This document shows positions 30,561-53,297 of a DNA stretch of 64,000 bases, in pieces; the stretch's first letter is position 1, and each line of letters opens with the position of its first letter. Both the position numbers and the translations under genes were made by a program. This DNA is from Bacteroidota bacterium (GTDB lineage: Bacteria; Bacteroidota; Bacteroidia; NS11-12g; UBA9320): contig WGNA01000010.1 of assembly GCA_016124755.1 (NCBI GenBank), positions 1 to 64,000 of the forward strand. The letters run 5' to 3'. The notes beneath the pieces are model-generated. The model saw only the letters and a program-made list of their open reading frames with translations. It was not told where the DNA came from and made no database searches.

Positions 30561-31514
30561 TTGAAACTGACGGAGCACATTGAATTGTCTGACCGGACGC
30601 TTTTTTCGTTTGAAATTCTGCCACCATTAAAAGGAGGCAGCATAGATTCCTTATATCGCACCATTGATGCGCTAATGGAGTTGAAACCATCTTTCGTTGA
30701 TGTAACCTATCACCGGGAAGAAACCATTATGCGAAAACGCGAAGACGGAACTTACGACCGGATCTCGGTTCGTAAAAGACCGGGTACAGTTGCCATTTGT
30801 GCAGCAATAATGAACCGGTATCAGGTTGAGGCAGTTCCGCATCTTATCTGTGGAGGTTTTAGTAAAGATGAGACTGAGAATGCACTAATTGATCTGCACT
30901 TTCTGGGAATAGAAAACGTACTGGCACTTCGCGGTGACAACGAGAGAGGCGAAAGAAACTTCAGACCGGAACCAAACGGGAACAAACATTCACTCGATCT
31001 TATTGAACAAATCGTGGACATGAATTCGGGTAAATATCTCGACGAAGAACTCCGTAATCCCAACCCAACCAATTTCTGTATTGGAGCAGCAGCCTATCCC
31101 GAAAAGCATATTGATGCTCCTAATATGCAAAGTGATGTGAACTTCCTGAAACGAAAGGTGGAAGCAGGCGCCAGTTACGCAACAACCCAGATGTTTTTTG
31201 ATAATTCGGTATACTTTGATTACGTGGACCGTTGTCGGGAGAACGGAATTTCGATCCCGATCATTCCTGGTTTAAAACCACTTACCCGCAAATCACAACT
31301 TTACTCGCTGCCGAAGATTTTTAATATTGATATACCGGAAGATCTGTGCAGGGAGATGGAAAAAACCAAAACCGATGAGGCAGCCGAACAGGTCGGAAAA
31401 GAATGGTGCATTCAACAATGCCGGGAATTGATTGAGAAGAAAGCTCCGGTACTACATTTCTATACCATGGGTTTGGCGAATGCGACCCGGGAAATTGCCA
31501 CAGCCGTATTCTGA
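30561..31514 (+). CDS. metF: Methylenetetrahydrofolate reductase
   Basis: A 317-aa TIM-barrel flavoenzyme that reduces 5,10-methylene-THF to 5-methyl-THF for methionine synthesis. The start MKLTEHIELSDRTLFSFEIL followed by PPLKGGSI is a standard MetF N-terminus with the catalytic Glu in FEILPP. FIDVTYHRE-like FVDVTYHREE, ENVLALRGDNERGE, FCIGAAAYPEKH, QMFFDN and IPIIPGLKPL follow. The start codon is TTG at 30561, 18 nt after the M28 stop, and gives the exact family start. The rsgA gene begins 4 nt after its stop. Confidence 0.96.
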   Translation: MKLTEHIELSDRTLFSFEILPPLKGGSIDSLYRTIDALMELKPSFVDVTYHREETIMRKREDGTYDRISVRKRPGTVAICAAIMNRYQVEAVPHLICGGFSKDETENALIDLHFLGIENVLALRGDNERGERNFRPEPNGNKHSLDLIEQIVDMNSGKYLDEELRNPNPTNFCIGAAAYPEKHIDAPNMQSDVNFLKRKVEAGASYATTQMFFDNSVYFDYVDRCRENGISIPIIPGLKPLTRKSQLYSLPKIFNIDIPEDLCREMEKTKTDEAAEQVGKEWCIQQCRELIEKKAPVLHFYTMGLANATREIATAVF

Positions 31515-31518
31515 AATC

Positions 31519-32421
31519 ATGATAAAAGGTACCGTAATTAGCTCTACTGGTTTGTGGTATACGGTACTCCCGGAAGGCGGGGAAGAAGTTAAAGCCAGAT
31601 TAAAAGGCAAGTTCAGACTAAAAGGCCGTGAGCTCACAAATCCGGTAGCAGTTGGTGATGAGGTAATACTGGAAGGATCCGGTGACGACATGGTAATTTC
31701 GCAAATACTCCAGCGAAGGAATTATCTGATTCGAAAGGCGACCCGGCAAAGTAGTCAGTTTCATGTGGTAGCTTCCAATCTGGATTTGGCTATTATATTA
31801 GTGACACTCCGCAATCCCCGGACATCGATTGGATTCATCGACAGGTTTCTGGTTACCTGCGAGGCATTCGATATTCCCGTTCTTATACTTATTAATAAGG
31901 TAGATATCCTCAACAATGAAGAACTGGAAAATGCCACGCAACTCAGTACATTATATAAAGGTATCGGATATCCGGTAATTACAACTTCACTCAAAACAAT
32001 AGACGACCTTTCAGAAATCAGGAGTTATGTAAATCATAAAACGGTACTGTTGTTTGGTCACTCCGGAGTTGGAAAGTCCACGCTTATTAATATGCTTGTT
32101 CCTGATGCCCGCCAGCAGGTTGCGGAAATCAGCGATGCAAACAGTAAAGGACGACACACAACCACATTTGCGCGAATGGTTTTAAGTGCAGATATGAGGT
32201 TGATAGATATTCCCGGAATAAAGGAGTTTGGTTTGCTTCCTATGGAGGGTTGGCAGATAGCGCATTACTTTCCGGAATTTCGTGAGGTGCTGCCCAACTG
32301 CCGATTCAATAATTGTCTACACATGCGGGAGCCGGGTTGCGCAATTCGGGAAGCAGTTGAATCCGGTTTACTGTCTTCCGGAAGATATAACAGTTACAAA
32401 AGTATGTTGGAAGGGGAATAA
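31519..32421 (+). CDS. rsgA: Ribosome small subunit-dependent GTPase A
   Basis: A 300-aa circularly permuted GTPase that assists 30S maturation. An OB-fold (1-68) is followed by the permuted G domain: G4 NKVD (126-129) precedes G1 GHSGVGKS (180-187) and G3 DIPG (230-233), with the switch region GRHTTTF (211-217). The C-terminal zinc site is C261, C266, H268, C274 (NCRFNNCLHMREPGC). The ATG at 31519 lies 4 nt after metF and fits the OB-fold start. An in-frame extension back into metF was rejected. The end, SMLEGE, is slightly short. A neighbouring frame continues past it (see findings). Confidence 0.95.
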   Translation: MIKGTVISSTGLWYTVLPEGGEEVKARLKGKFRLKGRELTNPVAVGDEVILEGSGDDMVISQILQRRNYLIRKATRQSSQFHVVASNLDLAIILVTLRNPRTSIGFIDRFLVTCEAFDIPVLILINKVDILNNEELENATQLSTLYKGIGYPVITTSLKTIDDLSEIRSYVNHKTVLLFGHSGVGKSTLINMLVPDARQQVAEISDANSKGRHTTTFARMVLSADMRLIDIPGIKEFGLLPMEGWQIAHYFPEFREVLPNCRFNNCLHMREPGCAIREAVESGLLSSGRYNSYKSMLEGE

Positions 32422-32640: not shown

Positions 32641-35600
32641 ATGACTAATAGTAGATTTGCCTTCGGTGAAGGATCTTCATTAACTACCTCAAAATCATTC
32701 GTCAAGCATTTGTTTCTATTGGCACTTGTTGCCTTGGTTTCAATGTCTGAAGTGTTTGCTACGATCAACGTAACATCTAAGCCTCAAACAAACAATGATT
32801 TTTGTGGTTCTGGTGGACCTACGCTTACCCTGCCCGTAGTTGCTACCAGTTCTTGTGGTTCCGGCACCATTGGTTACAAGTGGTATGTGGGGAGTGTGGC
32901 ACCAGCCAACCAGATTACTTCTTCCGGAGCAGCGTCTTATTCAGGGTGGACAACATCCACGCTTTTGGTGAACAACGCCTCAGTTCTCGGAACATCAACA
33001 ACCTACTATGCGGTCTTAAGTGAGACTTCTGGTGCCTGTGCCGACATCGACACAATCGGGCCCTTTAACTTCACTAAAGTATCAACTACTCCTACGGTTA
33101 ACATAGGTAGTTCTCCAAAGGAGGTTTGTCAAAACTCAACCGCTTCCTATACGGTGAGTATCACTGCTCCATCCCCAACCGGTTCTGTAAATTACAACTG
33201 GTACCGGGCTCCATACAGCGGTGCATTTTCAAATGTTAAAAACACAAGTACTTCATCTACATCAGATAATTATTCATATCTGGCAACTGCTCTTAGAGAT
33301 CAGGATCGCGTATATGTTACAGTAACCAATACATGTGGATCTACAAATAGTGATACCATCACTCTTGATGTGAACCCGTCACCGATTGTTACGGTTCCGC
33401 CGAGCATGTCAACTTTGAGTATGTGTCAGGGTGACTCGGTACAAGTGACCTATTCAATCGATACAGCACATTATCAAAACAGAGCCGGAAATATTGCCTG
33501 GACCATTCATCGGTCTGGCAGTTCTGCATTAGTTGCTCTTCTCGATACTACCGGTGTCGGAAATACAACAGTTACAAAATGGATTAAAGGATTGGCTCCG
33601 GGAGTTTACACAGTAACTTTTGGAAGCATCACAAATACTACAGAAGGTTGTACAAGAGTAATCTCAACCAACGCAATTAATATAACTGTATATCCGAGAC
33701 CGATGATCACATTCTCGGGTGTAACTCCACACAACTATTGTACAGGTACAGATACAACATCTTTCAAGATCACAGTTTCAAATGCTACTTATAATAATGG
33801 TGCATCAACGGTTAATGTAAACTGGAGTGCTTCCATACTACAGCAATCTGTAAACATCAATGGAAACTGTACCAGCGGTAATGCAAATATTCTTACCTCC
33901 GGAACTTTAACCGGTTCAGGTAACGGAACATTCTATTACTATCCATCAACAAATCTTTCACCGGGTACTTATACGTATAAGTTAACCGGCATTACAAATA
34001 CTTCGAACGGGTGTGTCGGTTCAACTACCGGAACAGACAGTATCGGATGGAGCGTTCGACCAAGACCAACATTAACGGTTGCACCGTCATCAACTTCTGT
34101 TTGTGAAGGCACCTCAACCAACTTTAATATAAATGTTCAGAACGCCAGATACTGTGTTGGAAATACTCCGACAAATGCAGACTGGAGTTTTTCATTTGTA
34201 GATTCTACCATGAGCACAATCGGTGCTTCTCCTTTGGTAGGATCAGGTAACGGTGTTGTTGGGCCATTCACTACAAAAGATACCTTACCAGAAGGTACTT
34301 ATGTATTTACTCCGGGAACAATTACCAACACAACGGTTGGTCACGGAGCTTGTGCCAGAACAATTACCGGTAATACTTTTACATTAACCATTAACCCGAC
34401 TCCGCATGTCACATTTGATATGGATTCAATCCATCAGTGTCAGGGAACAGCTGGAACTCAATTCCACATGACTGTTTCCAATGCTTCACTTAATGGAGTT
34501 GGTCAGAACTGGAGTGTTAATTATACCGGAACAGGTGCCAGCGCGCTTAGCTCAACAGCTTGTGCGGCGGGTACGCCTGCTGGTATCATTACCGGTGGAC
34601 AGACTGGAACAGGTAATCTTACCAAAACGTTCACAGTTCCAACCGGTCTTTCTCCAGGGGTTTATTTCTACCAGTTGAATTTTATTACCAATACATCCTC
34701 AGGATGTTTGACTTCACCATCTTCAGCTTCGGTAGGTGCTCATGATTCTATTACCATTATTATAGACCCGGCCCCGGTTATTACTATGAACCCGGACATT
34801 AAAGAGGTTTGTGAAAATGATCCTGAAACGTTCAACCTTCAGATCACAAACACGAAGGGTTGTAATAATATCGGGTCTGCTTACAATGCCGACTGGACAC
34901 TTCAGGGCTTAACCGACAATGTTCAATCGGATCTGGCGACTATGCCTTGGTATCCGGATAGCACTGGTAACGCTATTATTAAAGTAAATGTGAATACTGC
35001 ACTTACTTTATCTCCGGACGATCATTCACTTATTTCTTCTGTATATAATACTACAGCAGGAAGCGTTTGTGGTATTTCAAATAAAACTACAGACACATTT
35101 ATTTTAAGTGTTGATCCTAGACCTGAATTAAAAATCAACAACAACGGTTCTGCAACTGTTACAATGAACATCTGCGAAGGAACTCAGGATTCTTTCTACT
35201 TCGCGGTGTCGAATGCCAAACAAAATGGCAATCCTATTAACTGGGAAATTACGTATTCAGAATCTTCAGGTAACCTGAACACTTCATGTAATAATACGAC
35301 CGGTGCTAATCAGGATCTTCCTGGTGCTGCAGGTGCTTACACCGGTTTAGGAGATACTTCAATGTATATCCAAATCCCAAGTTCATTGCCGGTTGGTCGA
35401 TATACTTATACAGTTTCTAACATTGTTAATACAGATGGTCCTTGTACCGGAACAATTAACGGTGTAACACTGGGTAACCAAACGATCGTAATTAATGTTT
35501 ATCCGAAACCAGAACTGACAGTTACTCCGTCAGATTCTTTTGTTTGTGAACACTCCGTTCTTACAAACGCATTCAATATAAATGTTACCAACGCTGAATA

Positions 35601-38600
35601 CTGTTCAGCTGCCAATACAAAGAGTAATGTAAGTTATGAAATCAGTTACAGTACTGATGATGTAGATAGTGATGCACCAGCTTCTCCGATCACTGGATCA
35701 GGAAACGGAACTCACACTTACGATGCAGATACTTCTCAATCTCTGGCAGCAGGTACTTACCGTTTCATTACTTCCAGCATTACTACAACTGGTTTACCTA
35801 CCAATTGTCCCAATACACAGATCGATACTTTCACGCTTACGGTTAATCCAGAGCCGATTGCATCTTTCTCAGCCGATACAATTCACCTTTGTGAAGAAAC
35901 CGGTGGATCTGTTAACATAACTGTTTCTAACGCAGAACTTAATAGTGCGAATGTTAACTGGAGAATGATTATCACGGAAGCCAGCGGTAACATTCCGGTA
36001 TCAAATTGCGGTATTTCCGCTGCGGCCAATGCCAATATCATCAGCGACACAATAATTGGATCAGGAAACAAATCTGGATCACAGATTTCCTTCACTATTC
36101 CGGATACACTTGCTCCAGGTAGATATACTTACACTATTTCAAGCATTACAAATACTGATGCTAACTGTGTAGGTTCTGCTACTCCAAATGCTACCTTATA
36201 TATATATGTATATCCTCGTCCGGTTGTTACCGTAAATTCACATGCGGAAGTTTGCGAAAACAATGTGGGAACAGGATCTCTGAGCTTGCAGGTAACAAAT
36301 GCTCAATACTGTCCTTCAACATCGGCAGCTAATGTGAGTTACGATATTTATTTTTCTGATGATGTAAATTCCACAACAGGTGGTTCACCTTTGAATCACT
36401 CCGGAAACTGGAGCACATCTTTTAACGTAAATTCTCCTTCTACAAAAACAGAGGGTTACTACTATTTCGTAGTTGATTCTATTCAAACAACCGGTTTGCC
36501 TGTTGCTTGTACTTACCCGAACATCGATTCATTCGAATTACAGGTTAACCCGAACCCAATCGCAACTTTCGCTAATCACGTAATCACCATTTGTGAAGGT
36601 AACAGTGATTCAGTAGGAGTTGAAGTTACAAATGCAATGTTGGGTACTTCTGATGTTAACTGGAAAGTTACTGTTGCAGAATCTGCCGGTAACTTAGTTA
36701 CATCTTGTATCGAATCAAATACGGCTCACGCTAATGTTGTTCCGGATACCATTACCGGTAGCGGAAACAAATCGGGAGCTTCGACTTTGTACTACACAGT
36801 TCCGAATACACTCTCTCCGGGTGTTTATATTTATGTAATCAACAGCGTTCAGAACACCGATAAAAATTGTACCGGTACTTCTACTCCAAATGACTCTGTA
36901 ATCGTTTATGTATATCCTAAAATTCACGTAGTGGTATCACCGGATTCTGCGGAAGTGTGTGAAGGAGACGTAACAAACTTTGGTATTAAAGTTACTAATG
37001 CTAAATACTGTTCTGCCATTAACGTAGCTTCTACAAACGTTGACTGGCAGATGCCATATACGGATGCGACCAACAGTAACATCTTCCCTCCGGATACTTT
37101 GATTGGTTCCGGAAACTCTAGTTTTACTTTAACTGCTAATATGGGCGGCTTCCTTGGAGCAGGTTACTATAACTTCGTCGCGAATGAAGTGTTGTACACA
37201 ACTCCTGCTGCTTGTAATATCACCCTTACAGATTCAAACAAATTCACACTTCAGGTAAATCCAGAACCAACTGTAACGTTCAGTACTTCTAATGTGAATA
37301 TTTGTCAGGGAGAATCTGATTCTGTTTACATGATTGTAACCAATGCACAACTCGGTTCAACCGGTGTTAACTGGTCGGTTAAAGCAACAAGTGAAAGCGG
37401 TCTTGTAACAACATCTTGTGTTACGGGTGGTACTACTTCAGCATTTTTAACCGGTAATGGAAATGATTCGGTTGCTATCGTATTCCCGAATGATCTTGCA
37501 GTTGGCGTTTATGAAATTACACTCGACAGCATTTATAACGTAACACCTCCATGTACGGGAGTAATCGGAGCTACTCCGGTTCTTACCATTACTGTATATC
37601 CGAAACCGGATGTTGATCTGAGTGCAGACACACTTACCATTTGTGAGAATACTCAGGAAACATTTGATGTAGCGGTAACCAATGCTAAATACTGTGCTTC
37701 TATCGGAGGTTCGGTTATTAATGTTGGATGGGAAATTCAGTACGACGATTTTGTTGATAGTGATTTAACTCCTTCTATCTGGGTTGGTGCGGGTGATTCT
37801 ACCTTTACTGGTAACCATGTTAACAGTACTTACTCATTAACTAATGGTGGTTCACCGTTCGTACTTGACATTCAGAAAATTACAAATACAACTCATAGTT
37901 GTGTTAACACAGATAGTTTCCCTTCAAGCGAATTGACGGTAATTGTTAATGATCTTCCGGTTCTTACAGTAGACAGAATCACTTCTGATACTTGTAAATA
38001 CAATCCGGCGAGAATCGACTATACCGTTTCTGACGTTGATACAACAAATGGTTGGTGGTTCAGCATCACCGCTAATGGTTCAACAGATACTGTTTCCGGA
38101 ACAGGACCTTATACAGGAGTATTCTATACAGCTCCTTATGTAACTCCTGGAATAAAAGGAATCAGCTTCTCAGCGATCACAAATACTGCAACCGGTTGTG
38201 TTGGAAACACTCCGGCAGCAGGTTCAGTTAATATTCTTGCCTTGCCAGACGTAACCAGCTTTGATGTTAATGCATCAACTGCAACTGTTTGTTCCGGTGA
38301 CACGACTTACTTCGACTTCACTGTAATTAACAGTGCCGGTAAGAACTGGGTAATCACTTACGATATTGATGGTGGTTCAAGTAAAACATGGACTGGTACA
38401 GGTAACGGAGCATTCACAAGAGGTATTGAAAGACAATATCATCAAGATGCTGCCGGTGCGGATACAACTGTAACCGTTACTCTCTTGAACATCACATGGT
38501 CTGGTACTACTCCGGTTTGTGGTAATGACACTATTACAGATAGTACTGCTACAATCCTTATTCATCCAAGACCATATATCTCACTCGATGCTCCTTCTAA

Positions 38601-41600
38601 TGTGTGTGTGAACTATTCAACAGATGTTCAATACACGGTTTCAGGTGTTAAGCCGGCAGAAGATTGGGAATTTAACTGGTACACTACTGGTCCAACTGAT
38701 GGCCCGAACGTAGTGGACAGCACAGGTTCTTTGAGCCACTACTTCACAACTGCTCCGTTAACTCCGGTTGGAACTTCAACTGTTTATGTACCGATGGTGA
38801 CAAACACTACCACCGGTTGTGACAGTTCAAATTCAACCTGGGCGGATACAATGACTGTAGATCCTCCTACAGTTCCGGGTACTCTTTCTCCATCATACAC
38901 AATTTGTGATGGTGATGTAGGGCCATTTACATTTACATTAACGGGTTACACAGGTGTTATTCAACACTGGGATTCTTCTGAAAATCTTGGATACCTGTGG
39001 TTTGATATAGGAAACGATAGCAATAACACACACACTGTGGTTAGCCCACACCTCACAACAAACTATCAGGTTGTTGTTAAGAGCGGTGCTTGTCCTGCAG
39101 ATACATCGAATGATGTAATCCTCTTCGTTCATCCTCAGCCAAACGCTACTTTAGTAAGTGTTACAGACAGCATTTGTAGTGGTTCTAACATCGATGTTGT
39201 ATTCGACGTTATCGGTGTTCCAAACACACATAGCTGGACTCTTGACTATACGGTTAAAATTGGAGCTGGTGCTCCGACTTCAGGTTCATGGACAGGAACC
39301 GGTTCTTCTTCCAATATTGCTAAAACACTCACCAATGGTGGTGGCGGATTTGGAAGTGGCCCGGTTGTAATAACACTTACTAATATTACAAACAACAACA
39401 CGAATTGTGATACCGCCCTCACTCAGAGCGCAACAACACTCGTGAAAACTGCTCCTAACGGCGCAACCGTTACCGGAACAGATACCTTGTGTCAAAATTC
39501 AAATGGTTTCATTACTTGGGACGGAACTGCTGCTGATGGTTATGTAACCGGATGGCAGAAGAAAGTAGGTTCAGGTTCATGGACTACAATCAGTGGTGCG
39601 TCAGGTGATACGCTTGAGTTTACTCAGATTCAAACAACTACTCAGTTCAGAGCGATAGTTAAGAATGCACCTTGTACTGGAACAGATTACTCTGCACCGG
39701 CTACCGTTGCTGTAGTTGCTTCAAATCCAACTGCTGATTACATTGGATTCCTGCCATCAAATTATAAATTCTGTGCATCTCCGACAGCGACAACCTCATT
39801 GACATATAAAGTTCTTGGAACTAATGGTAATGACTGGACACTTCAAATTTTGGAAGACGATAGCCTGCACACAGTGACTGGTCACGGAGATGATACATTA
39901 ACATTCACTACTACTCCGGGTGAAATGCAAGAATCATTTGACGTGGTTCTCGTGAGATTGCAAATCACTTCCGGTTCGGTAATGTGTACTAAGAACCTTG
40001 ACAATGCTTCAACTGCAAGAGTGGTAATTCTGGCTCAGCCGGCGGTAACACTTAACAGCGTTACAGCTTCGGTTTGTGATGGAGACACCGTTAGCATGTC
40101 AATTACAGTTTCTAATGTTAAGTCTACTGAAAACTGGACTTTGAATTACAGCATTAACGGAAATAGTAAAACAACTTCCGGCACTGGTCCAGGATCGTAT
40201 ACAGTTAAAATTCCTTACTCAGTATCTGGTGGAAATGCAACACAAACCGTGTCGCTTACCAGCATTACAAATACAACTTTGAAAAACTCTGCCGGTAATA
40301 CGTGTACCAATACATTGTCTGGTCAGTCAATGACATACAAAGTACGAGGTACTACAGTGGCAGGCACAATTGGAACAAGCACCAGCGTTTGTAAAGGCGC
40401 AAGCGGATTTGTAACACAATCAGCGGCTAGTTCAAATGGTTCTACACTTACAGATTGGCAAAGCAGCACATGGACAGGTTCAGCATGGACTTCATGGACA
40501 AGCCTTGGCAACACTTCAACTACACAAGCTTACGTAACGCTGCAAAACACAACTCGCTACAAAGCTATCTACGCCAACAGCCCTTGTGATACTGCAAGTT
40601 CTAACGTGGTAACCATTACAGTTCGTGAACTTCCTTATGCAGTGGTTTCTCTTACTGCCGGTAACGACACAATTTGTGAAGGTTCTACTTCAACTGTAAC
40701 TCTTACGGTTTCCAACATTGATAACGGACAGTCATTTACAGTTAATTATGTAGAAGGTTCGGTAAGCAAAACCAAAACATTCACAAACAACAGTACAGGA
40801 GTTCACACCTTTACTACCGGAACAATTACATCCACTACGGATATCAGCTTAAGTTCAATAGCTACAACCAGCGGTGTAACTTGTTCTAATTCTTCTCTGA
40901 ATTCAACTGTAACCATTACGGTTCAGGAGAAACCAACAGGTACAATTGCGAGTTACGATAACCCGCTTTGTCAAGGTCAAACGGTTAATTACACAATCAC
41001 AATTGGTAATGTCGGATCAACAGACAAGTGGACTGCTAACCTCACTCTTGATGGTAATACAGAAACTGTAACAGGAACTGGAACCGGTACATTCTCGGCG
41101 ACCACTACCAATACAGTTACCAGCACATCAGACAATCTGGTTTTGGTGAGTGTGGTAAATAATTCAACTCAGGATGCTTGTGCTACAACAGTTAATCAGA
41201 CAAAGGTTATTACGGTTGCTGCTCCTACTACAGCCGGAACAATCGGAACTTCAACAAGTGTTTGTAAAGGTGCCAGCGGTTCGGTTTCTCAAACAGCGAG
41301 CGGTAACGGATCACTCACTTACTGGTTAACACGTAGCTGGAATGGTTCAAGCTGGGGATCTTGGTCAAGCATTGGAAACACTGCTACCACCCAGACTTAC
41401 ACCAACCTTCAGAACACAACTCAATACCGTGCAGTTTATACAAATTCACCTTGTGATACAGCAGGTTCAAACACTGTAACGATAACCGTTAAAGAATTGC
41501 CAACTGCTACTTTATCGCTTTCTGCAGGTAACGACACAATTTGTGAAGGAACAACCACAACTGTAAACATTACAGTTGCCAATATCTCTTCAGGTCAGAC

Positions 41601-44600
41601 ATTCAGAGTTGACTTTACTGAAGGTTCAACAACCCGATTCAAAACATTCACCCACAACGGTGGATCTACTTATACATTTACAACGAACGCATTATCCTCA
41701 AGTACTGTAATCTCAATTGATCAGATTCAGACAACTTCCGGAGTAATGTGTTCTAATACTAATTTGAATTCTTCTGTAACAGTTACTGTTAATGAGAATC
41801 CAACCGCCACTATCGCTTATGCTGACCAAACCCTTTGTCAGGGAGAAACAGTTGACTTTGCTGTAACTGTAGGAAGCCTTGGTTCAAGTGATAACTGGAC
41901 ATTGAAATATAACCTCGACGGAACTAATGAGACAGTAACAGGAACAGGTACGGGTACATTCAGCTTTACCACCACTGCAACTGTAACTGCTACATCAGAT
42001 GTTCTTAAACTTGATCTCATCACCAATAACTCAATTCAGGATGCTTGTAACTCAACACTTAGTGATTCTAAAACAATCACTGTTGATACTACCACAGTTC
42101 CTGGTATTGTAGGTACATCAGCAATTTCTAAAGACACAACGATCTGTGTTGGAGGAAGTGCTCAATTGGTAGAATATCAAGCTGGAACCGGTAACATTAA
42201 CAAATGGCAATCTAAAGTAAGTTCATCTTCAACCTGGGTTGACATCAATACAACCGGTACAGTGATGAATGTTTATAATGTAAACGATACAACACTTTAC
42301 AGAGCGGTTTATCAAAACGGAGTTTGTGCTTCTGCGGTTTCAAACTCAGTGGCTGTTAATCCAAAACAACTTCCGCTTGCTGTAATCTCTACTGTTGTTG
42401 ATGATTCTATATGTGCTGGAACAACTGCCGATTTTGAAATCACAGTTACCAATGTTTCAGCAGGTCAGAACTTCACAGTTTACTATAAAGAAGGTTCTGT
42501 TAACAGACAGCAAAACCTAACACAAAATGGAAGCGGTGTTCATACCATTACAACAGGAACACTTACAACCTCATCGTTGATTCAATTGACAAGTATTAAT
42601 GTGACCAGTGGTCATCCACAATGTTCTGATACCTTGTCGAGCAATGCTACCATTACAGTTCTGGATCTTCCTTTTGCAACTATCACTTCAGGTCCTGATA
42701 CACTTTGTCAGAACGATAAGATTGTGTTCACTGTCAACATCAGTAACGTTGCTTCAACAGATAGCTGGAAACTTATTTACGAATTGGAAAGCGACCTTGA
42801 TACCATTACAGGTACAGGTCCTGGAAGCTTTACCAGAGTAGATACGGATTCAAATACAGCGGAGTCTGCTAAGATCCAGTTGGTGGAGATTACGAATCTC
42901 TCTAACCTCGGAGTTTGTAAATCAGTTAATACTGATGATTGGGATATTTATATCTACAAACCAACCGAGCCGGGAACTATCGGAACAAACGACACTATTT
43001 GTAAAGGTGGATCAACTGCAATTTCTGAAATCGTAGGAACTCCAAAACAAGGTGTAACCGTAAGTTGGGAATACAGACCGGAAAGTGCATCTAACTGGAC
43101 TGGTCTCAGCAACAGCAACACTACGTTGAACGTGATCAACCTTCAGGAGACCACACATTACCGTGCAGTTTATAAGAGCGGAGTTTGTGATACAGCACAT
43201 TCTAATGTTGTAACTATCACAGTTCGTGAATTGCCGGTTGCTACCCTTTCCGGATCAACAACTATTTGTCAGGGAGATTCAGCTGATCTTACTATCACCG
43301 TTTCAAACGTGGGTTCAGGTCAGGATTGGGAAATTGACTTCCTCGAAGGAACTCAGTTTAAAACCATCACCGGAACAGGTAATGGTAACCACACTTTGAG
43401 AGTATACAATGTTCAGACAACAACTGATGTAACATTACGTGAAATCAGAACTGTATCTCTTGTTCCTCAATGTGTGAATAATAAACTATCAAGCAATGCG
43501 ACTGCTACAGTTCGTGTTAATCAAAGACCTTACGCAAGTCTGAATGGAGTTAATACTCCGGTTTGTCAGGGAAGCACTTCTTCATTCACTGTTTCAATCT
43601 CTAATGTTAAGAGCAATGAGAACTGGACATTGACTTACGATGTGGACGATGCAACCTTTGGCGCTACTTATTCAGGTAAAGGTCCTGGAACATACACCAT
43701 CACAACTCCAAGTCTTAATACAGATAAGACTTACTATGTGAAACTTAATAACATCCTGAATACTTCTACAGGTTGTGATTCTAACCTCACATCGCAGCTC
43801 GGTATCGTAGTTGACGCAACAACACAACCGGGTTCAGTAGCGTCAGACACAACAGTATGTTATGCATCTCATGTTGGAACTGTACGTCACACAGGTGGTA
43901 ACGGTTCAATTGTTCGATGGGAAACTTCTCAGGACAATGGAGTAAGTTGGGCTACTATTTCTTCTACAGCAAGTAACTATACTTACAGCAACCTTACTAA
44001 AACAAGTAAGTTCAGAGTTGTTAAGCAAAATGGTGTTTGTTCAGAAGCAGCTACTTCTCCGATTACTGTTACAGTTAATCAACTACCGGTGGCTACTGTA
44101 TCTGGTTCTGATACGATTTGTGCCGGAACATCAGGTACTTTAACTGTAACTGCGACCAACACTCAGGGTCAAAACTGGAAAGTTTCTTACCTCGTTGGAA
44201 CCAGAATCGATACTTTGAGTGTTTCTGGTCCATTGACAACTGGAACAATCAATACCGGAACACTTTCTAAAACAACAGATGTTACCCTGAAGAAAATCTG
44301 GATGACATCAGGTGCTCCACAATGTGAAAACAACAACCTTACTAATAATGCGACAGGAACGGTTGAGGTTAATGATCTGCCAGCAGCTACATTAATTTCA
44401 CTTACCGATTCTGTATGTACAGGACACCCTGCTTATGGTAAGGCTACAGTTTCTAATGTTCGTTCTTATGAGAAGTGGAAGTTATACTGGTCTATTAACG
44501 GTGGTGCTGCTGATTCAGCAACAGGTACCGGTGCCGGAAGCTTCAATTTCACAACTAAGAATCTGACTGTTAATCCTTCTACACTCAGACTTACTAAGAT

Positions 44601-47600
44601 TGTAAATAGTTCAACCGGATGTAATTATCTCCCAACTGATCAGGATTCAGTAATTGTAAGTCCTGTTACAGTAGGTGGTACATTGTCTAGTGCTGATACT
44701 GTATGTAAAGGATCTAACAACGGAACATTGGTTCTCGGTGCCGACGCAAGAGGTTCTATCCTCAAATGGGAATACAGTACTGACAACGGATCAACTTGGT
44801 CAACAATCAATAACACTGCATCCAGCTACACATATAACAATATCTCAACCTCAACATGGTACAGGGTATTAGTTAAAAATGGTGCTTGTGATGCCGCTTA
44901 CTCTAGCACAGTTAAAATTACTGTTAATGAGTTGCCGGTTGCTGCAATTACCTCAGTTGGTGCAAACAGTATTTGCGAAGGTTCCAGCACTTATGTAGTG
45001 TTAACACTGAGCAACGTTGGATCTGGTCAGAACTGGGAGCTTAAATATCTCCAGGGATCATCAGTGAAAACTCTCAGCGGAACAGGTCCGGGTAAAGACA
45101 CAATCTTCACCGGAACATTGATCGCAACAACTGATATTACGCTTCAAACTTTGAAGATTACAAGTGGATCACCACGATGTGAAAATCTCAATATCACCAA
45201 CAATTACACAACAACTATTAATGTAATTGATAACCCGACAGCTACAATCACGAATTATCCTTCTAACATCTGTAAAGGAGAAACTCCATCCGTAACTGTA
45301 CTGGTTGATGATGTTAAGTCTTCACAATCTTGGACTTTGATCTATCGTGTGAATAATGGTTCAAACCGTACAACTTCAGGTGTTGGTTCCGGATCATTCT
45401 CACTGAACAATATGCCTTCATTGACTAAAGAAGGTCCAAATGGCATCAGATTGATGTCTATTACTAATACTTCAACTTCACCAAATTGTACCGGTGCCCT
45501 TTCTGACTCAATCACCATTATGGTTGACTCTACATCAGTAGGTGGTACAATCGCAGGTGTTAGCAAAGTTTGTAAAGGTTCATCTGCAGCTCTGCTGTTA
45601 AATGGTGAAAGAGGATCTGTTCAGAAATGGCAGTACTCTACCGACGGTATTAACTACTACGACATTGCTAATACTTCAGATTCTCTGAATACTGCAGCGT
45701 TGAATGTTAAAACCTGGTTCAGAGCGGTTGTTCAGAACGGAGTTTGTGCACCTGCTAATTCTTCAGTGAAAATTGTGGATGTTCAAGAGTTGCCAACTGT
45801 TTCAATAAACAACCCGACTCAAACTATCTGTTCAGGTTCAACTGTTACTCTTAACCTTTCTATTGGTAATGTGTCTTCAAGTGATACCTGGACACTCACT
45901 TATAAAGAAAACGGAACTGCTTCTACATACAGCAGCGGAACCGGTACTTCAGAGTCTATAACCTTCGGGCCTTACACTCAGACAACAACTATTGAGATTA
46001 CCGGAATTACACTCAAAACCGGCTTAGGATGTTCGAATACAATTAGTGAAAAAGCTGTGATTACGGTTACTCCTAATCCTACTGCAACTATCACTTCTGT
46101 ACCGGATTCACTTTGTGAGGATGATGTGTTGTCATTCTATGTAACGGTTGACGATGTAGCAACGGGAACTCAATGGGCACTTGATTATGAGATTGACGGT
46201 GTTGCCGCAACTACTAAGAAAGGAACAGGATCAGGAACATTTGTAGTTAATACTGCAAGAAAAGTTTCGCCATCCTCTGTGAAAATTGAATTGAAGAGCA
46301 TCAAGCTTGACAATACATTAGGTTGTGCTTCCACACTGAAGGATACCAGAACAATAATGGTGAGTCCTAAAACAGTTGGAGGTTCATTATCACCTGCTTC
46401 TACACTTATCTGCTCAGGTGCAAGTACCAACATTACACTAAGTGGTCATACCGGCAGAATCGTAAGATGGGAATACAGTACAGACAATGGAGCAACTTGG
46501 ACAGCAACTGCTAATACAGATAAAACTCTTCAGCCTAAGAACCTGACTCAGACTACTCAATACAGAGTGTTTGTACAGAGTGGATCTTGTAACGGTGCTT
46601 ACTCTTCAGTTGCTACTGTTACTATTAAACCTGCTCCTGAGGCTACTGTAACATCAAATGATGTTGTTTGTCCTGGAGAAGATGCGGTGTTCACAGTTCA
46701 TGTAACAAATGTTGGAGCCGGTGAAAACTGGTCATTGAGATACAGAAAAGATGGCGGAGGATTCCGAATTGTTACCGGAACGGGTAGTGGAGACTTTACT
46801 TTCAATGTAGTAGGTTCTTCTTACGCTGGTAACCCAACGTATATCACTGTAGATCTGTATGACATCACGAACACCACGTTTGGTTGTACTAATGCGGATC
46901 TCAACAGTTCAGCAACTGCTAGAGTCACTCCAAAACCAGTTGTTGACTTCACTGTGAGCGATAATTGTCAGGATAGCATGTTCCACTTCAACAACCTCTC
47001 TTCTATCAAAGAAGGTAACATCACTAATTATAAGTGGTACTTTGGAGATGGAGATTCAAGCATCGACATTTCACCGGATCATATGTACGGAGCTCCTGCT
47101 ACCTATACTGTAACTCTTAAGGCTACCAGTGAAAACGGTTGCTCAAGTTCAGCAACTAAAGATGTGAAGGTTTATCCGTTGCCAGTTGCCTTGTTCGACG
47201 CTAACAATGTTTGTCAGAACGCGGCATTCTCAGCGACAGATCGCTCTTCAATTTCTTCAGGTTCTATAGCTTCAAGATTCTGGACATTCGGTGACGGTTC
47301 AACTTCAACAGTGAAGAACCCAACTCATACCTACGCAACATCTGGTAACTTCGATGTTACACTTACTGTAGTTTCTACTAATGGTTGTAGTGCAACTTAT
47401 ACGAAAACAATTACCGTATATCTGCTTCCGGAAGCCAACTTCGTAGCTAACCCGGTTTGTGAAGGTCTCGCTATGAATTTTACAAACTCATCCGCTATCG
47501 GATATGGTTCAATGACTTACCAGTGGAACTTCGCTGGTCAGGGTACATCACAAGCGAAGGATCCTAACTTTACATTCAATGGTTATGGAACCTTCGGTGT

Positions 47601-48681
47601 ACGAATGATTGCAGTAAGCAACAACGGATGTAAAGACACCATCGACAGAAATGTAACTGTTTATCCTTCGCCTACTGCGTTGTTTACAGTGTCTTCTGTT
47701 TGTATCGGTGATCCAAGCGCATTTAAAGATGCTTCAACTGTTCCATCAGGTACTATCACAGAACATTACTGGAATTTCGGAGATCAAAACTTCAGTGGTC
47801 TTACTAATCCAATGCATACTTATGCTGCTCCGGGTACATACAATGTAACCTTGAGAGTTAAGTCTAACAATGGTTGTGAGGATACTTACACGAATACTGC
47901 TGATGTAATCGACTTGCCAAAAGTTGATCTCAAGGCTAACGGCCCAACAGAATTCTGTCAAGGTAAAAACGTTGTGTTGTCTGCGAATCCAAGTGCCAGA
48001 GATTATCAATGGACTTGGGATGGTGGATCAGCGACTACCTCTTCCATCACTGTTACCAAGTCTGGATGGTATAAAGTGCGTATCACTTCAGCACCTCTTG
48101 GTTGTGCCAATGAAGATTCTATCTACGTAACAGTTTGGCCATTGCCAACTGCTAAGGCTTGGCCACGTGATAAGGTAACTCAGTCTATCGATACCGTAAG
48201 CAAAGGTCAATCTATTGATCTCCATGCATCAGGTGGTGAGGTTTATGACTGGAATCCTGGAACATACCTGAGTTCAACTGTATCTCCGGATGTTATTGCC
48301 CGAAGAGTTGAAACCGATATCACTTACACCGTTACTGTAACAGATTCAAATGGATGTAGAAATTCTGCGAATGTTTCAGTTGTAGTTCTTGATGATTTCG
48401 AACTGGTGGTTTACAACACTGTAACACCTAACGGCGACGGATTGAACGACACATGGTACATCGAAAACATCTGGGCTTATCCGGATGCTGAGGTGATTGT
48501 CTTCAACCGATACGGTATGCAGGTGTACCGAAACACTGGATATAAAAATACCTGGGCTGGTACTTACCAGAAAACAGGTGAAGACTTACCGGATGGACCG
48601 TACTACTATGTAATTACGCATCCAGACTTTAAGGATAAAGTTTATAAAGGTGTAATCAACATCATCAGAGAGAAGAAATAA
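32641..48681 (+). CDS. Giant Ig-like/PKD repeat adhesin with T9SS type B sorting domain
   Basis: A predicted 5346-aa protein. Start ATG 32641 lies below the -7 element; 16 further upstream codons are open but precede the transcript. An unusually long N-region is followed by a hydrophobic signal (about 22-40). More than 40 Ig-like modules of about 85-120 aa follow, each marked by (V/I)C(E/Q/K)G and a later Cys that may form a disulfide. Modules alternate in pairs at 34.1-37.9 kb and in threes at 39.4-46.9 kb. Four PKD domains (46.93-47.91 kb), two further beta domains and a C-terminal CHU_C domain (48391-48678; TPNGDGLNDTW, VIVFNRYGMQVY) complete it. The CHU_C end marks T9SS export of SprB/gliding-adhesin type. 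Surface attachment, gliding or prey/particle binding are possible. It is followed by its likely outer-membrane partner 22 nt later. Confidence 0.93.
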   Translation: MTNSRFAFGEGSSLTTSKSFVKHLFLLALVALVSMSEVFATINVTSKPQTNNDFCGSGGPTLTLPVVATSSCGSGTIGYKWYVGSVAPANQITSSGAASYSGWTTSTLLVNNASVLGTSTTYYAVLSETSGACADIDTIGPFNFTKVSTTPTVNIGSSPKEVCQNSTASYTVSITAPSPTGSVNYNWYRAPYSGAFSNVKNTSTSSTSDNYSYLATALRDQDRVYVTVTNTCGSTNSDTITLDVNPSPIVTVPPSMSTLSMCQGDSVQVTYSIDTAHYQNRAGNIAWTIHRSGSSALVALLDTTGVGNTTVTKWIKGLAPGVYTVTFGSITNTTEGCTRVISTNAINITVYPRPMITFSGVTPHNYCTGTDTTSFKITVSNATYNNGASTVNVNWSASILQQSVNINGNCTSGNANILTSGTLTGSGNGTFYYYPSTNLSPGTYTYKLTGITNTSNGCVGSTTGTDSIGWSVRPRPTLTVAPSSTSVCEGTSTNFNINVQNARYCVGNTPTNADWSFSFVDSTMSTIGASPLVGSGNGVVGPFTTKDTLPEGTYVFTPGTITNTTVGHGACARTITGNTFTLTINPTPHVTFDMDSIHQCQGTAGTQFHMTVSNASLNGVGQNWSVNYTGTGASALSSTACAAGTPAGIITGGQTGTGNLTKTFTVPTGLSPGVYFYQLNFITNTSSGCLTSPSSASVGAHDSITIIIDPAPVITMNPDIKEVCENDPETFNLQITNTKGCNNIGSAYNADWTLQGLTDNVQSDLATMPWYPDSTGNAIIKVNVNTALTLSPDDHSLISSVYNTTAGSVCGISNKTTDTFILSVDPRPELKINNNGSATVTMNICEGTQDSFYFAVSNAKQNGNPINWEITYSESSGNLNTSCNNTTGANQDLPGAAGAYTGLGDTSMYIQIPSSLPVGRYTYTVSNIVNTDGPCTGTINGVTLGNQTIVINVYPKPELTVTPSDSFVCEHSVLTNAFNINVTNAEYCSAANTKSNVSYEISYSTDDVDSDAPASPITGSGNGTHTYDADTSQSLAAGTYRFITSSITTTGLPTNCPNTQIDTFTLTVNPEPIASFSADTIHLCEETGGSVNITVSNAELNSANVNWRMIITEASGNIPVSNCGISAAANANIISDTIIGSGNKSGSQISFTIPDTLAPGRYTYTISSITNTDANCVGSATPNATLYIYVYPRPVVTVNSHAEVCENNVGTGSLSLQVTNAQYCPSTSAANVSYDIYFSDDVNSTTGGSPLNHSGNWSTSFNVNSPSTKTEGYYYFVVDSIQTTGLPVACTYPNIDSFELQVNPNPIATFANHVITICEGNSDSVGVEVTNAMLGTSDVNWKVTVAESAGNLVTSCIESNTAHANVVPDTITGSGNKSGASTLYYTVPNTLSPGVYIYVINSVQNTDKNCTGTSTPNDSVIVYVYPKIHVVVSPDSAEVCEGDVTNFGIKVTNAKYCSAINVASTNVDWQMPYTDATNSNIFPPDTLIGSGNSSFTLTANMGGFLGAGYYNFVANEVLYTTPAACNITLTDSNKFTLQVNPEPTVTFSTSNVNICQGESDSVYMIVTNAQLGSTGVNWSVKATSESGLVTTSCVTGGTTSAFLTGNGNDSVAIVFPNDLAVGVYEITLDSIYNVTPPCTGVIGATPVLTITVYPKPDVDLSADTLTICENTQETFDVAVTNAKYCASIGGSVINVGWEIQYDDFVDSDLTPSIWVGAGDSTFTGNHVNSTYSLTNGGSPFVLDIQKITNTTHSCVNTDSFPSSELTVIVNDLPVLTVDRITSDTCKYNPARIDYTVSDVDTTNGWWFSITANGSTDTVSGTGPYTGVFYTAPYVTPGIKGISFSAITNTATGCVGNTPAAGSVNILALPDVTSFDVNASTATVCSGDTTYFDFTVINSAGKNWVITYDIDGGSSKTWTGTGNGAFTRGIERQYHQDAAGADTTVTVTLLNITWSGTTPVCGNDTITDSTATILIHPRPYISLDAPSNVCVNYSTDVQYTVSGVKPAEDWEFNWYTTGPTDGPNVVDSTGSLSHYFTTAPLTPVGTSTVYVPMVTNTTTGCDSSNSTWADTMTVDPPTVPGTLSPSYTICDGDVGPFTFTLTGYTGVIQHWDSSENLGYLWFDIGNDSNNTHTVVSPHLTTNYQVVVKSGACPADTSNDVILFVHPQPNATLVSVTDSICSGSNIDVVFDVIGVPNTHSWTLDYTVKIGAGAPTSGSWTGTGSSSNIAKTLTNGGGGFGSGPVVITLTNITNNNTNCDTALTQSATTLVKTAPNGATVTGTDTLCQNSNGFITWDGTAADGYVTGWQKKVGSGSWTTISGASGDTLEFTQIQTTTQFRAIVKNAPCTGTDYSAPATVAVVASNPTADYIGFLPSNYKFCASPTATTSLTYKVLGTNGNDWTLQILEDDSLHTVTGHGDDTLTFTTTPGEMQESFDVVLVRLQITSGSVMCTKNLDNASTARVVILAQPAVTLNSVTASVCDGDTVSMSITVSNVKSTENWTLNYSINGNSKTTSGTGPGSYTVKIPYSVSGGNATQTVSLTSITNTTLKNSAGNTCTNTLSGQSMTYKVRGTTVAGTIGTSTSVCKGASGFVTQSAASSNGSTLTDWQSSTWTGSAWTSWTSLGNTSTTQAYVTLQNTTRYKAIYANSPCDTASSNVVTITVRELPYAVVSLTAGNDTICEGSTSTVTLTVSNIDNGQSFTVNYVEGSVSKTKTFTNNSTGVHTFTTGTITSTTDISLSSIATTSGVTCSNSSLNSTVTITVQEKPTGTIASYDNPLCQGQTVNYTITIGNVGSTDKWTANLTLDGNTETVTGTGTGTFSATTTNTVTSTSDNLVLVSVVNNSTQDACATTVNQTKVITVAAPTTAGTIGTSTSVCKGASGSVSQTASGNGSLTYWLTRSWNGSSWGSWSSIGNTATTQTYTNLQNTTQYRAVYTNSPCDTAGSNTVTITVKELPTATLSLSAGNDTICEGTTTTVNITVANISSGQTFRVDFTEGSTTRFKTFTHNGGSTYTFTTNALSSSTVISIDQIQTTSGVMCSNTNLNSSVTVTVNENPTATIAYADQTLCQGETVDFAVTVGSLGSSDNWTLKYNLDGTNETVTGTGTGTFSFTTTATVTATSDVLKLDLITNNSIQDACNSTLSDSKTITVDTTTVPGIVGTSAISKDTTICVGGSAQLVEYQAGTGNINKWQSKVSSSSTWVDINTTGTVMNVYNVNDTTLYRAVYQNGVCASAVSNSVAVNPKQLPLAVISTVVDDSICAGTTADFEITVTNVSAGQNFTVYYKEGSVNRQQNLTQNGSGVHTITTGTLTTSSLIQLTSINVTSGHPQCSDTLSSNATITVLDLPFATITSGPDTLCQNDKIVFTVNISNVASTDSWKLIYELESDLDTITGTGPGSFTRVDTDSNTAESAKIQLVEITNLSNLGVCKSVNTDDWDIYIYKPTEPGTIGTNDTICKGGSTAISEIVGTPKQGVTVSWEYRPESASNWTGLSNSNTTLNVINLQETTHYRAVYKSGVCDTAHSNVVTITVRELPVATLSGSTTICQGDSADLTITVSNVGSGQDWEIDFLEGTQFKTITGTGNGNHTLRVYNVQTTTDVTLREIRTVSLVPQCVNNKLSSNATATVRVNQRPYASLNGVNTPVCQGSTSSFTVSISNVKSNENWTLTYDVDDATFGATYSGKGPGTYTITTPSLNTDKTYYVKLNNILNTSTGCDSNLTSQLGIVVDATTQPGSVASDTTVCYASHVGTVRHTGGNGSIVRWETSQDNGVSWATISSTASNYTYSNLTKTSKFRVVKQNGVCSEAATSPITVTVNQLPVATVSGSDTICAGTSGTLTVTATNTQGQNWKVSYLVGTRIDTLSVSGPLTTGTINTGTLSKTTDVTLKKIWMTSGAPQCENNNLTNNATGTVEVNDLPAATLISLTDSVCTGHPAYGKATVSNVRSYEKWKLYWSINGGAADSATGTGAGSFNFTTKNLTVNPSTLRLTKIVNSSTGCNYLPTDQDSVIVSPVTVGGTLSSADTVCKGSNNGTLVLGADARGSILKWEYSTDNGSTWSTINNTASSYTYNNISTSTWYRVLVKNGACDAAYSSTVKITVNELPVAAITSVGANSICEGSSTYVVLTLSNVGSGQNWELKYLQGSSVKTLSGTGPGKDTIFTGTLIATTDITLQTLKITSGSPRCENLNITNNYTTTINVIDNPTATITNYPSNICKGETPSVTVLVDDVKSSQSWTLIYRVNNGSNRTTSGVGSGSFSLNNMPSLTKEGPNGIRLMSITNTSTSPNCTGALSDSITIMVDSTSVGGTIAGVSKVCKGSSAALLLNGERGSVQKWQYSTDGINYYDIANTSDSLNTAALNVKTWFRAVVQNGVCAPANSSVKIVDVQELPTVSINNPTQTICSGSTVTLNLSIGNVSSSDTWTLTYKENGTASTYSSGTGTSESITFGPYTQTTTIEITGITLKTGLGCSNTISEKAVITVTPNPTATITSVPDSLCEDDVLSFYVTVDDVATGTQWALDYEIDGVAATTKKGTGSGTFVVNTARKVSPSSVKIELKSIKLDNTLGCASTLKDTRTIMVSPKTVGGSLSPASTLICSGASTNITLSGHTGRIVRWEYSTDNGATWTATANTDKTLQPKNLTQTTQYRVFVQSGSCNGAYSSVATVTIKPAPEATVTSNDVVCPGEDAVFTVHVTNVGAGENWSLRYRKDGGGFRIVTGTGSGDFTFNVVGSSYAGNPTYITVDLYDITNTTFGCTNADLNSSATARVTPKPVVDFTVSDNCQDSMFHFNNLSSIKEGNITNYKWYFGDGDSSIDISPDHMYGAPATYTVTLKATSENGCSSSATKDVKVYPLPVALFDANNVCQNAAFSATDRSSISSGSIASRFWTFGDGSTSTVKNPTHTYATSGNFDVTLTVVSTNGCSATYTKTITVYLLPEANFVANPVCEGLAMNFTNSSAIGYGSMTYQWNFAGQGTSQAKDPNFTFNGYGTFGVRMIAVSNNGCKDTIDRNVTVYPSPTALFTVSSVCIGDPSAFKDASTVPSGTITEHYWNFGDQNFSGLTNPMHTYAAPGTYNVTLRVKSNNGCEDTYTNTADVIDLPKVDLKANGPTEFCQGKNVVLSANPSARDYQWTWDGGSATTSSITVTKSGWYKVRITSAPLGCANEDSIYVTVWPLPTAKAWPRDKVTQSIDTVSKGQSIDLHASGGEVYDWNPGTYLSSTVSPDVIARRVETDITYTVTVTDSNGCRNSANVSVVVLDDFELVVYNTVTPNGDGLNDTWYIENIWAYPDAEVIVFNRYGMQVYRNTGYKNTWAGTYQKTGEDLPDGPYYYVITHPDFKDKVYKGVINIIREKK
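34050..37960 (+). repeat. Two-module alternating repeat within the adhesin
   Basis: Two Ig-like module types alternate. Type A carries N(A/T)xxC, mostly NAxYC, at 34141, 34849, 35590, 36298, 36997 and 37681, giving periods of 708, 741, 708, 699 and 684 nt. Type B has NAxLN/NAxLG followed by VNW about 340 nt later in each unit. Both end in Y/N-P-x-P linkers and share TGSGN and PGxYxY motifs. Confidence 0.85.
39460..46925 (+). repeat. Three-module superrepeat within the adhesin
   Basis: Units of three different Ig-like modules: (i) ELPxAT...ICEG...SGQ, (ii) PTATI...LCQG...NW(T), (iii) GTIG...CKG...W...TTxYRAV. The type iii start recurs at 39460, 40362, 41236, 42103, 42973, 43831, 44677, 45544 and 46381, that is every 837-902 nt. 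Copies keep protein motifs but differ at many synonymous sites. Confidence 0.85.
46931..47905 (+). repeat. Four tandem PKD domains of the adhesin
   Basis: Four copies of about 80 aa with W.FGDG-type cores (KWYFGDGDSS, FWTFGDGSTS, QWNFAGQGTS, YWNFGDQNFS) followed by YxxxGTYxVTL-like strands. The third copy has lost the FGDG motif. They separate the Ig array from the sorting domain. Confidence 0.9.
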
Positions 48682-48702
48682 TAACAGGAATTGAATAACA
48701 AA

Positions 48703-50196
48703 ATGATTAAAATGAAAAAGCTAATCATTCTAGCAGCAGTTGCAGTTCTCGGAATCACAGGAGCGATTGCACAGCAGGTACCGTTGTATAGCCATTTCTA
48801 TTACAACCAATTCCTGTACAACCCTTCACTGGCAGGAACCAAACCTTTCGGCCAGTTGTTTCTTGTGAATCGTAATCAGTGGAACAGCATTCCTGGTGCT
48901 CCCAGAACACAGGCTTTAACTGTAGATGGTCCGCTTAAGAATAATAAAGTAGGTATCGGCTTGGGTGTTTATCACGACCAAGCCGGTATCTTCAATATTA
49001 CCGGTGCACAGGCAGCTTATCGTTACAGTCTGGATTTCGGAAAGAACAGAATGCTATCATTCGGATTAGGTTTGGGTGTTCTTAACAACCGACTAGACCT
49101 TAATGATGTTAAAGTTAAAGATGTTCTCGATCCGGATATTTATAACGCGTATCAATCTGCAACAGGATTTGATGCTAACATCGGATTGAATTACAAGTGG
49201 AATAATTTGGTGGTTGGTTTCACTGTACCGCAAATCATTGGTGGTGAATTGGCATATGAAGCTATTCAAAATAAAATCACGAATGGTACTGTGCAGTATG
49301 GAATGATTCGTCATTTCCTCGTTCACGCGAATTACGAATGGGATGTTTTTGGAAACGAAAAATGGTTCTATCAACCAAACGTAATTGTACGTGTTACTCC
49401 TAATGCACCTACCAGTTTCGATATCAACGGAGTTGTTAGTTACAAACATCTCTACTGGGGTGGTATTATGTACCGTCGTCAATATGCGATTACTGCATCT
49501 GCAGGTTTAAGAATTGGTGAGCAGATTGTTGCGGGTTACGCTTACGATTTCGCGATTCATGATGTTAGTCAATACACTCGTGGAGCACATGAAGTAATGG
49601 TTGGCTGGCAGTGGGGTGGAAGTCCGTCTGACGATCCGAAAATCAAAGCTCAGTTGAAAGCTATCAATGATAAAATCAACAGCACAGATCAAAAGGTGGA
49701 TTCAATTGGTAAAGAAGTTAAGAAAACTCAGAAGGATCTTGACGAAACCAAAGATGACGTAAAAGATCAGGAAGATGAAATTGATGAACTCCGTCAGAAG
49801 ATCAAAACATTTGAAGATTTCATGAAGGATGTTAAAGATGGAAAAATCGGCAGTGGTTCAAAAAGCGGCGATGTTTTCACTTTCAATAACGTGTACTTCG
49901 AAACTAATAAGTGGGATCTGAATGGTGTTTCAACTGAGGAATTGGATAACCTTGCTACCGTTCTTAAGGAAAATCCAAATCTTAAAATTGAAATTGCTGG
50001 TCACGCTGATAAGAGAGGTTCTGTTTCTTATAATATCTGGTTGTCAAACAAACGAGCTAATGCTGTAAGAGACTACCTGATTAAAAAAGGAGTAAGCGCT
50101 TCTCAACTTGAAGTGAAAGGATACGGAGCTTCTGAACCAGCAAGTACAAAACTGGATGAAAACAGAAGAGTAGAATTCAAGATTCTTTCGAAATAA
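48703..50196 (+). CDS. PorP/SprF-like outer-membrane protein fused to OmpA domain
   Basis: A 497-aa protein from ATG 48703 (a second ATG at 48712 is equally possible; both give a signal peptide ending AIAQ). Residues about 25-305 are a PorP/SprF beta-barrel-like domain: VPLYSHFYYNQFLYNPSLAG, NQWNSIPGAPRTQ, YRYSLDFGKNRMLSFGL, GLRIGEQIVAGYAYDF. A charged coiled coil (about 315-380, KAINDKINSTDQKVDSIGK...) leads to an OmpA/MotB peptidoglycan-binding domain (about 392-497) with AGHADKRGS and ENRRVEFKIL. It should tie an outer-membrane T9SS accessory barrel to the cell wall. It begins 22 nt after the giant adhesin gene, like SprF after SprB, and ends at a strong terminator. Confidence 0.93.
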   Translation: MIKMKKLIILAAVAVLGITGAIAQQVPLYSHFYYNQFLYNPSLAGTKPFGQLFLVNRNQWNSIPGAPRTQALTVDGPLKNNKVGIGLGVYHDQAGIFNITGAQAAYRYSLDFGKNRMLSFGLGLGVLNNRLDLNDVKVKDVLDPDIYNAYQSATGFDANIGLNYKWNNLVVGFTVPQIIGGELAYEAIQNKITNGTVQYGMIRHFLVHANYEWDVFGNEKWFYQPNVIVRVTPNAPTSFDINGVVSYKHLYWGGIMYRRQYAITASAGLRIGEQIVAGYAYDFAIHDVSQYTRGAHEVMVGWQWGGSPSDDPKIKAQLKAINDKINSTDQKVDSIGKEVKKTQKDLDETKDDVKDQEDEIDELRQKIKTFEDFMKDVKDGKIGSGSKSGDVFTFNNVYFETNKWDLNGVSTEELDNLATVLKENPNLKIEIAGHADKRGSVSYNIWLSNKRANAVRDYLIKKGVSASQLEVKGYGASEPASTKLDENRRVEFKILSK

Positions 50197-53268: not shown

Positions 53269-53297
53269 TCTTAGAGAATAATTTAAAAGTTACAAAG

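Follow-up and report, generated by a model that had tools for sequence, protein, structure and literature searches.

A giant putative type B T9SS adhesin with paired and tripled Ig-like modules and a PorP/SprF-OmpA fusion carrier in a Bacteroidota bacterium

What kind of protein does an unusually long bacterial reading frame encode, and how might such a protein be built and held at the cell surface? We addressed this question for a 16-kb gene on contig WGNA01000010.1 of a Bacteroidota bacterium, within a 64,000-nucleotide stretch (the window). The gene is a single open frame on the forward strand, with a start codon at ATG 32641, a stop codon ending at 48681 and zero internal stops, and it encodes a putative adhesin (Table 1). 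An initial reading of the letters of the window (the first-pass annotation) had described one uninterrupted frame with a 5346-residue product from this ATG, and the stop-free translation, together with open orthologs elsewhere, bears this out. An alternative start, TTG 32593, lies 48 nt upstream of the ATG, the context of which (MTNSRF) is common to the orthologs.

Several ortholog assemblies break within the adhesin gene, as might be expected if the long frame were an artefact of repeats collapsed or joined during assembly. However, modules that share 36–38% identity are too diverged to collapse, and the whole gene, in the same order, occurs in two other assemblies. Ortholog frames are uninterrupted at 4862 and 4866 codons in separate assemblies, making an assembly artefact very unlikely, and we regard this reading as refuted in effect, with a probability close to negligible. 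RsgA upstream and the carrier gene downstream are conserved around the orthologs, RsgA being recognised by its C-terminal sequence as the neighbour in those orthologous loci that have upstream sequence. The nearest named relative is the MAG Bacteroidetes bacterium UBA6491.

Table 1 Features of the adhesin locus, in window coordinates
Feature	Position	Strand	Details
RsgA GTPase gene	31432..32421	+	syntenic marker
Giant adhesin gene	32641..48681	+	5346 aa
Predicted Sec signal peptide	32641..32760	+	residues 1–40, KSFVKHLFLLALVALVSMSEVFA|T; read by eye
N-terminal Ig-like domain	32761..33075	+	cysteines 55, 72, 133; kept in four orthologs
Modules 1–2	33076..33687	+	single Ig-like
Modules 3–14	33688..37941	+	six A-B pairs; relative to the first module Cys, extra Cys at +38 to +43 in A and +17 to +19 in B
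Modules 15–19	37942..39438	+	non-periodic: three singles, one X-type, one Z/Y-like
Modules 20–43	39439..46359	+	eight X-Y-Z triplets; Y position of first triplet is diverged module 21
Modules 44 and 45	46360..46914	+	terminal X module (44), then module 45
Four PKD domains	46915..47907	+	period 82 aa
Ig-like domains I and J	47908..48411	+	J with FG-loop cysteine only (Cys 5239)
Type B T9SS C-terminal sorting domain	48412..48678	+	CHU_C, TIGR04131; without cysteine
Carrier gene	48691..50196	+	PorP/SprF barrel (residues 26–305), coiled-coil-like linker (318–385), OmpA peptidoglycan-binding domain (402–491); without Cys

The C-terminus of the adhesin matches CHU_C (PF13585, E 4.8e-23, 81.5 bits against a cut-off of 27) and TIGR04131 (55.4 bits, cut-off 35), placing the protein among T9SS type B substrates, and a profile search found four PKD_4 stretches preceding this sorting domain, in agreement with the C-terminal CHU_C domain and four PKD domains of the first-pass annotation. 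T9SS machinery is encoded in the genome, with SprA (2395 bits) and GldK (544 bits) both above cut-off. There are 46 Ig-like modules, namely the N-terminal Ig-like domain and 45 more of 86–124 residues each. The type B C-terminal domain and the Ig/PKD modules support the earlier suggestion of a giant, probably rod-like T9SS adhesin, for which adhesion would be the function; no ligand-binding domain was identified in the protein. An AlphaFold model of an X-Y-Z-X segment was confident (pLDDT 92), and its best Foldseek match was MpAFP (PDB 4p99, E 4.9e-13). The A-B-A model was weaker, with a pLDDT of 80 and a value below 60 in the loop that holds an extra cysteine of A; this three-module layout was folded instead of A-B-A-B, for which the alignment slid out of register owing to modules common to its rows. 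Foldseek on the A-B-A model yielded generic beta-sandwich matches with low TM-scores, which were little informative.

The modules are arranged in two arrays of different period. Autocorrelation of the protein gave peaks at 234/228 residues (702/684 nt) between residues 400 and 1800, and at 289/285 residues (867/855 nt) between residues 2400 and 4750, while start-to-start spacings, taken from cysteine positions, were 684–735 nt for pairs and 840–900 nt for triplets; the periods first read from the window, 684–741 nt and 837–902 nt, are thereby borne out. Modules in the same phase of the pair array align with a score of 152 versus 70 for those in the other phase, a difference of 82 that was tied by 24 of 10,000 shuffles, which is the floor of the shuffle test with a 6/6 split. 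For the triplets, the corresponding scores were 134 and 49, and the difference of 86 was reached by 0 of 10,000 shuffles, the largest of which gave 40. Classes A, B, X, Y and Z also separate in a module tree, bar a few weakly placed members. The module order is thus far from random by both the shuffle test and the tree, supporting the proposal of two separate multi-module expansions, one of A-B (six copies) and one of X-Y-Z (eight copies). The arrays had also been credited with a near-identical ordering, which holds for the order of the modules but not for their sequences, since the mean identity within classes is 38% for pairs and 36% for triplets, with a maximum of 69%. No exact 24-mer recurs in the adhesin DNA and TRF returned nothing on it, because the repeats are old and diverged.

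The same order of pairs and triplets is found in separate assemblies, with copy numbers that differ by whole units. The complete frames of G009 and G020 read (AB)5(XYZ)7, ordered as in the adhesin; G014 and G017 keep (AB)6; and more distant genomes keep the XYZ array, the four PKD domains and the end domains. In genus g3, most modules are 45–83% identical to their positional counterparts, compared to 36–38% inside the adhesin, indicating that both expansions are mostly old and that later change occurred by whole units. The pair and triplet expansions mostly predate the split between genera. Modules 26–28, the second full triplet, have no clear counterpart in G009 and G020 and share 57–69% identity with the first, consistent with a recent duplication of a whole triplet.

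How the adhesin is held at the surface is suggested by the gene that follows it. The carrier begins 9 nt past the adhesin stop codon and matches TIGR03519 (228.7 bits), as a cognate PorP/SprF neighbour should, and the same chain continues from this barrel into a coiled-coil-like stretch and an OmpA domain (PF00691, 79.4 bits). The first-pass annotation had missed this fusion, as well as the cysteine pattern described below and the whole-unit changes in copy number. In all 12 of the 12 genomes compared, the carrier contains zero cysteines and keeps the D, N(+8), R(+15) pattern of peptidoglycan contacts expected of an OmpA-type anchor; these residues hydrogen-bond peptidoglycan in PorE (PMC7192894). 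PADLOC matched the carrier as a defence system through its OmpA and coiled-coil parts only, and we rejected this assignment.

The first-pass annotation had compared the adhesin to SprB of Flavobacterium johnsoniae and considered a role in gliding or attachment. In a gliding role, an SprF-like carrier would drag the adhesin along the GldJ/K/N track. Such a glider would account for a type B C-terminal domain with a PorP/SprF gene directly downstream, as in sprB-sprF (PMC12618676), and for a length similar to that of SprB, about 200 nm (PMC12635249). The genome also encodes GldK and a GldJ-like protein that scores 374 bits, under the cut-off of 458. However, sustained movement of SprB on the track requires the Cys-X-Cys C-tail of SprF, which forms a disulfide to GldK (PMC12635249), and the carrier described here lacks this tail. 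The absence of cysteine from the carrier, together with its retention of all three peptidoglycan contacts, leaves SprB-like gliding unsupported; the peptidoglycan-binding domain would moreover keep the carrier immobile. We therefore consider gliding unlikely, and a static, wall-anchored adhesin appears the more likely arrangement from the carrier sequences.

Counting the one described here, the genome has three carriers encoded immediately downstream of a CHU_C gene, and each terminates in an OmpA or SPOR domain, while the PorPs located near gldJ and gldK lack both domains but carry C-tail cysteines. The two other PorP/SprF carriers with a C-terminal SPOR domain lie at L050:9013-10473 and L051:8831-10864, each directly after a CHU_C gene, and a PorP near a GldJ-like gene (L057:3740-4777, reverse strand) has two C-tail cysteines 13 residues apart, resembling the SprF tail. 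Matches spanning nearly the entire carrier occurred in a small number of further families within the class (G222, G240 and G167), showing that the fusion is found repeatedly and is not confined to the family of the adhesin.

Like SprB/SprF, the locus encodes a giant type B T9SS adhesin followed by a PorP/SprF-type carrier gene; it differs in the coiled coil and OmpA domain fused to the carrier, and probably in its module array. In Porphyromonas gingivalis, a single complex contains the type B protein PG1035, PorP and PorE, the last of which binds peptidoglycan (PMC9143113). There, as proposed here, a PorP barrel holds a type B protein and an OmpA domain provides the tie to peptidoglycan (PMC9143113, PMC7192894); in our case, however, PorP and OmpA belong to the same chain, and the cargo exceeds its P. 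gingivalis counterpart more than tenfold in length.

The cysteines of the adhesin follow a regular pattern that bears on how its modules are joined. Each of the 45 modules has two cysteines, one located in the turn that leads into strand B and the other beyond strand F, and in the strand order of the X-Y-Z-X model the first ends the strand preceding B and the second lies just past strand F. In the Ig topology, the AB-turn and FG-loop positions are at opposite poles of the sandwich, and the two cysteines should therefore not meet inside one module, the bottom of which faces the top of the next.

In the CHU_C proteins of the same genome, PKD-type domains with an FG-loop cysteine nearly always carry an AB-turn cysteine as well when they are internal (133 of 134, with one loss), but last domains seldom do (6 of 20, with 14 losses; p 2e-14; this and the p-value below treat related proteins and paralogs as independent and serve as guides). 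First domains show the reverse loss: most of the domains in which the FG-loop cysteine is genuinely missing stand at the head of their string, and among 22 internal PKD-type domains initially scored as lacking it, several (six in the adhesin) have a cysteine just outside the search window. Where a last domain keeps its AB-turn cysteine, a linker cysteine usually occurs 8–18 residues before the C-terminal domain motif. Proteins with and without this linker cysteine numbered 10 and 5 where the AB-turn cysteine was kept versus 1 and 13 where it was lost; the rule was derived from these proteins of the adhesin's own genome, and its subsequent application to a set of 40 proteins encoded in other genomes gave 11 and 3 versus 3 and 14 (combined p 4e-6). 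In L095 (G000:C25:108700-112200), a PKD domain that follows a linker-type cysteine is without an FG-loop cysteine three times running. Exceptions are five last domains in the same genome that have an AB-turn but no linker cysteine, and module 1101 of L073, which the staggered rule leaves unaccounted for.

These losses at the ends of strings suggest disulfides between neighbouring modules, in which the AB-turn cysteine of one module would bond to the FG-loop cysteine of the next. The reverse pairing, from FG-loop to the next AB-turn cysteine, was rejected: it predicts last domains with an AB-turn and without an FG-loop cysteine, the opposite of what is seen. In the adhesin, the final Ig-like domain (J) retains the FG-loop cysteine only, and the BC loop of the N-terminal domain holds an additional cysteine, a possible partner for the FG-loop cysteine of that domain; with this pairing added to the staggered scheme, all 116 cysteines of the adhesin would have a partner. 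Bonding of the two cysteines within each module, in ordinary Ig style, is the conventional expectation, and the presence of both cysteines in most internal modules fits either model, with the end effects then being quirks of lineage. Yet this would require bonds between cysteines located next to strands B and F, on opposite poles of the sandwich, it would leave residues 72 (in the N-terminal domain) and 5239 without a partner, and last domains drop one of the two cysteines where first domains drop the other; we consider intramodule bonding rather unlikely. We found no description of inter-domain disulfides in such proteins in the open-access literature, which is weak evidence that they are undescribed.

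Further CHU_C proteins were also observed. L095 consists in part of a PKD-Ig unit repeated thrice, with the linker cysteine after the Ig domain. An 830-residue protein with Ig-like domains is encoded on the reverse strand of the window at 59204-61696, and its last domain, with an AB-turn and without a linker cysteine, is an exception to the staggered rule. A second giant protein, L066 (G000:C6:79000-92500; about 4194 codons), is on one contig with the adhesin and has 97 cysteines and different domains.

Within the pair array, A modules carry an extra cysteine 38–44 residues after the first module cysteine and B modules carry one 17–19 residues after it. In the near clade, comprising this genome and genus g3, every module examined has its extra cysteine (A, 32 of 32; B, 32 of 32); in the far clade, represented by G003 and G004, where assignment to A or B is less certain, the counts are 0 of 5 for A-like and 0 of 4 for B-like modules. 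Because the array starts with A and finishes with B, the partner of the extra cysteine must sit inside the A-B pair. In the A-B-A model, which is of medium confidence, strand order places the extra cysteine of A past strand C, at the bottom, facing that of B in the BC loop, at the top, suggesting that each A-B pair may be held by a second disulfide staple.

Taken together, we regard it as probable that the adhesin is a T9SS type B protein that forms a long, covalently reinforced rod, anchored to the wall through its carrier. Sec would carry the adhesin to the periplasm and the T9SS translocon would pass it across the outer membrane, with its C-terminal domain staying attached to the carrier's PorP barrel; the coiled coil and OmpA domain would tie this complex to peptidoglycan, so that the rod would stand on the wall, off the gliding track. 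Along the rod, staggered disulfides would link each module to the next, with one more staple per A-B pair, and the pair and triplet arrays would act as spacers, the length of which changes through gain or loss of complete units. We further think it reasonably likely that strings of Ig and PKD modules in type B T9SS proteins of Bacteroidota are generally chains of staggered disulfides running end to end, and that in this adhesin A-B is a doubly stapled unit gained or lost whole.

Other long surface proteins share parts of this architecture. MpAFP, an RTX extender adhesin (PDB 4p99), is likewise a long tandem array of Ig-like extender domains; however, RTX extenders of this kind have nearly identical repeats, are stiffened by calcium and use type 1 secretion (PMC4083281), whereas the modules described here are diverged, occur in pairs and triplets, and would owe their stiffness to disulfides. 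Two F. johnsoniae proteins, RemZ and RemA (PDB 8gl8 and 8gl6), contain X/Y Ig-like modules with the same cysteines, but are much shorter, at 1114 and 1436 residues in the PDB chains. The grappling hook protein GhpA of Aureispira (PDB 9flp and others; 5898 aa in 9flp) is also giant; its Ig/PKD modules are related to those of the adhesin, and the C-terminal domains match. As GhpA, the C-terminus of which is type B-like, ranks among the top two sequence relatives of the X-Y-Z modules in the PDB and first for the end comprising the PKD and C-terminal domains, including a match to its last 86 residues, the adhesin might instead form a GhpA-like, multi-chain hook or filament that catches prey. The matches are nevertheless to common domain families in repeated modules rather than an end-to-end alignment, and we consider such a hook distinctly unlikely beside a wall-anchored rod.

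If the wall-anchored, stapled rod is correct, inter-module stapling would make the rod much stronger and would account for the ability of very long T9SS adhesins to withstand load with neither calcium nor isopeptide bonds. At least two PorP/SprF carrier types would then be distinguishable by sequence, a tail-cysteine type that can couple adhesins to the moving track and a cysteine-free, OmpA- or SPOR-ended type that fixes to the wall, and a genome would predict which giant adhesins move. PKD and Ig modules would also have to be cut differently for expression, as single modules would contain unpaired cysteines.

Downstream of the carrier, on the forward strand of the window at 52690-54737, we observed three tandem paralogous exported proteins of 192–219 residues, which had no functional family match in NCBIfam and have in common the motifs IPEVA.LDLE, SVDSSIWINYSS and IGSCYTGDGA.
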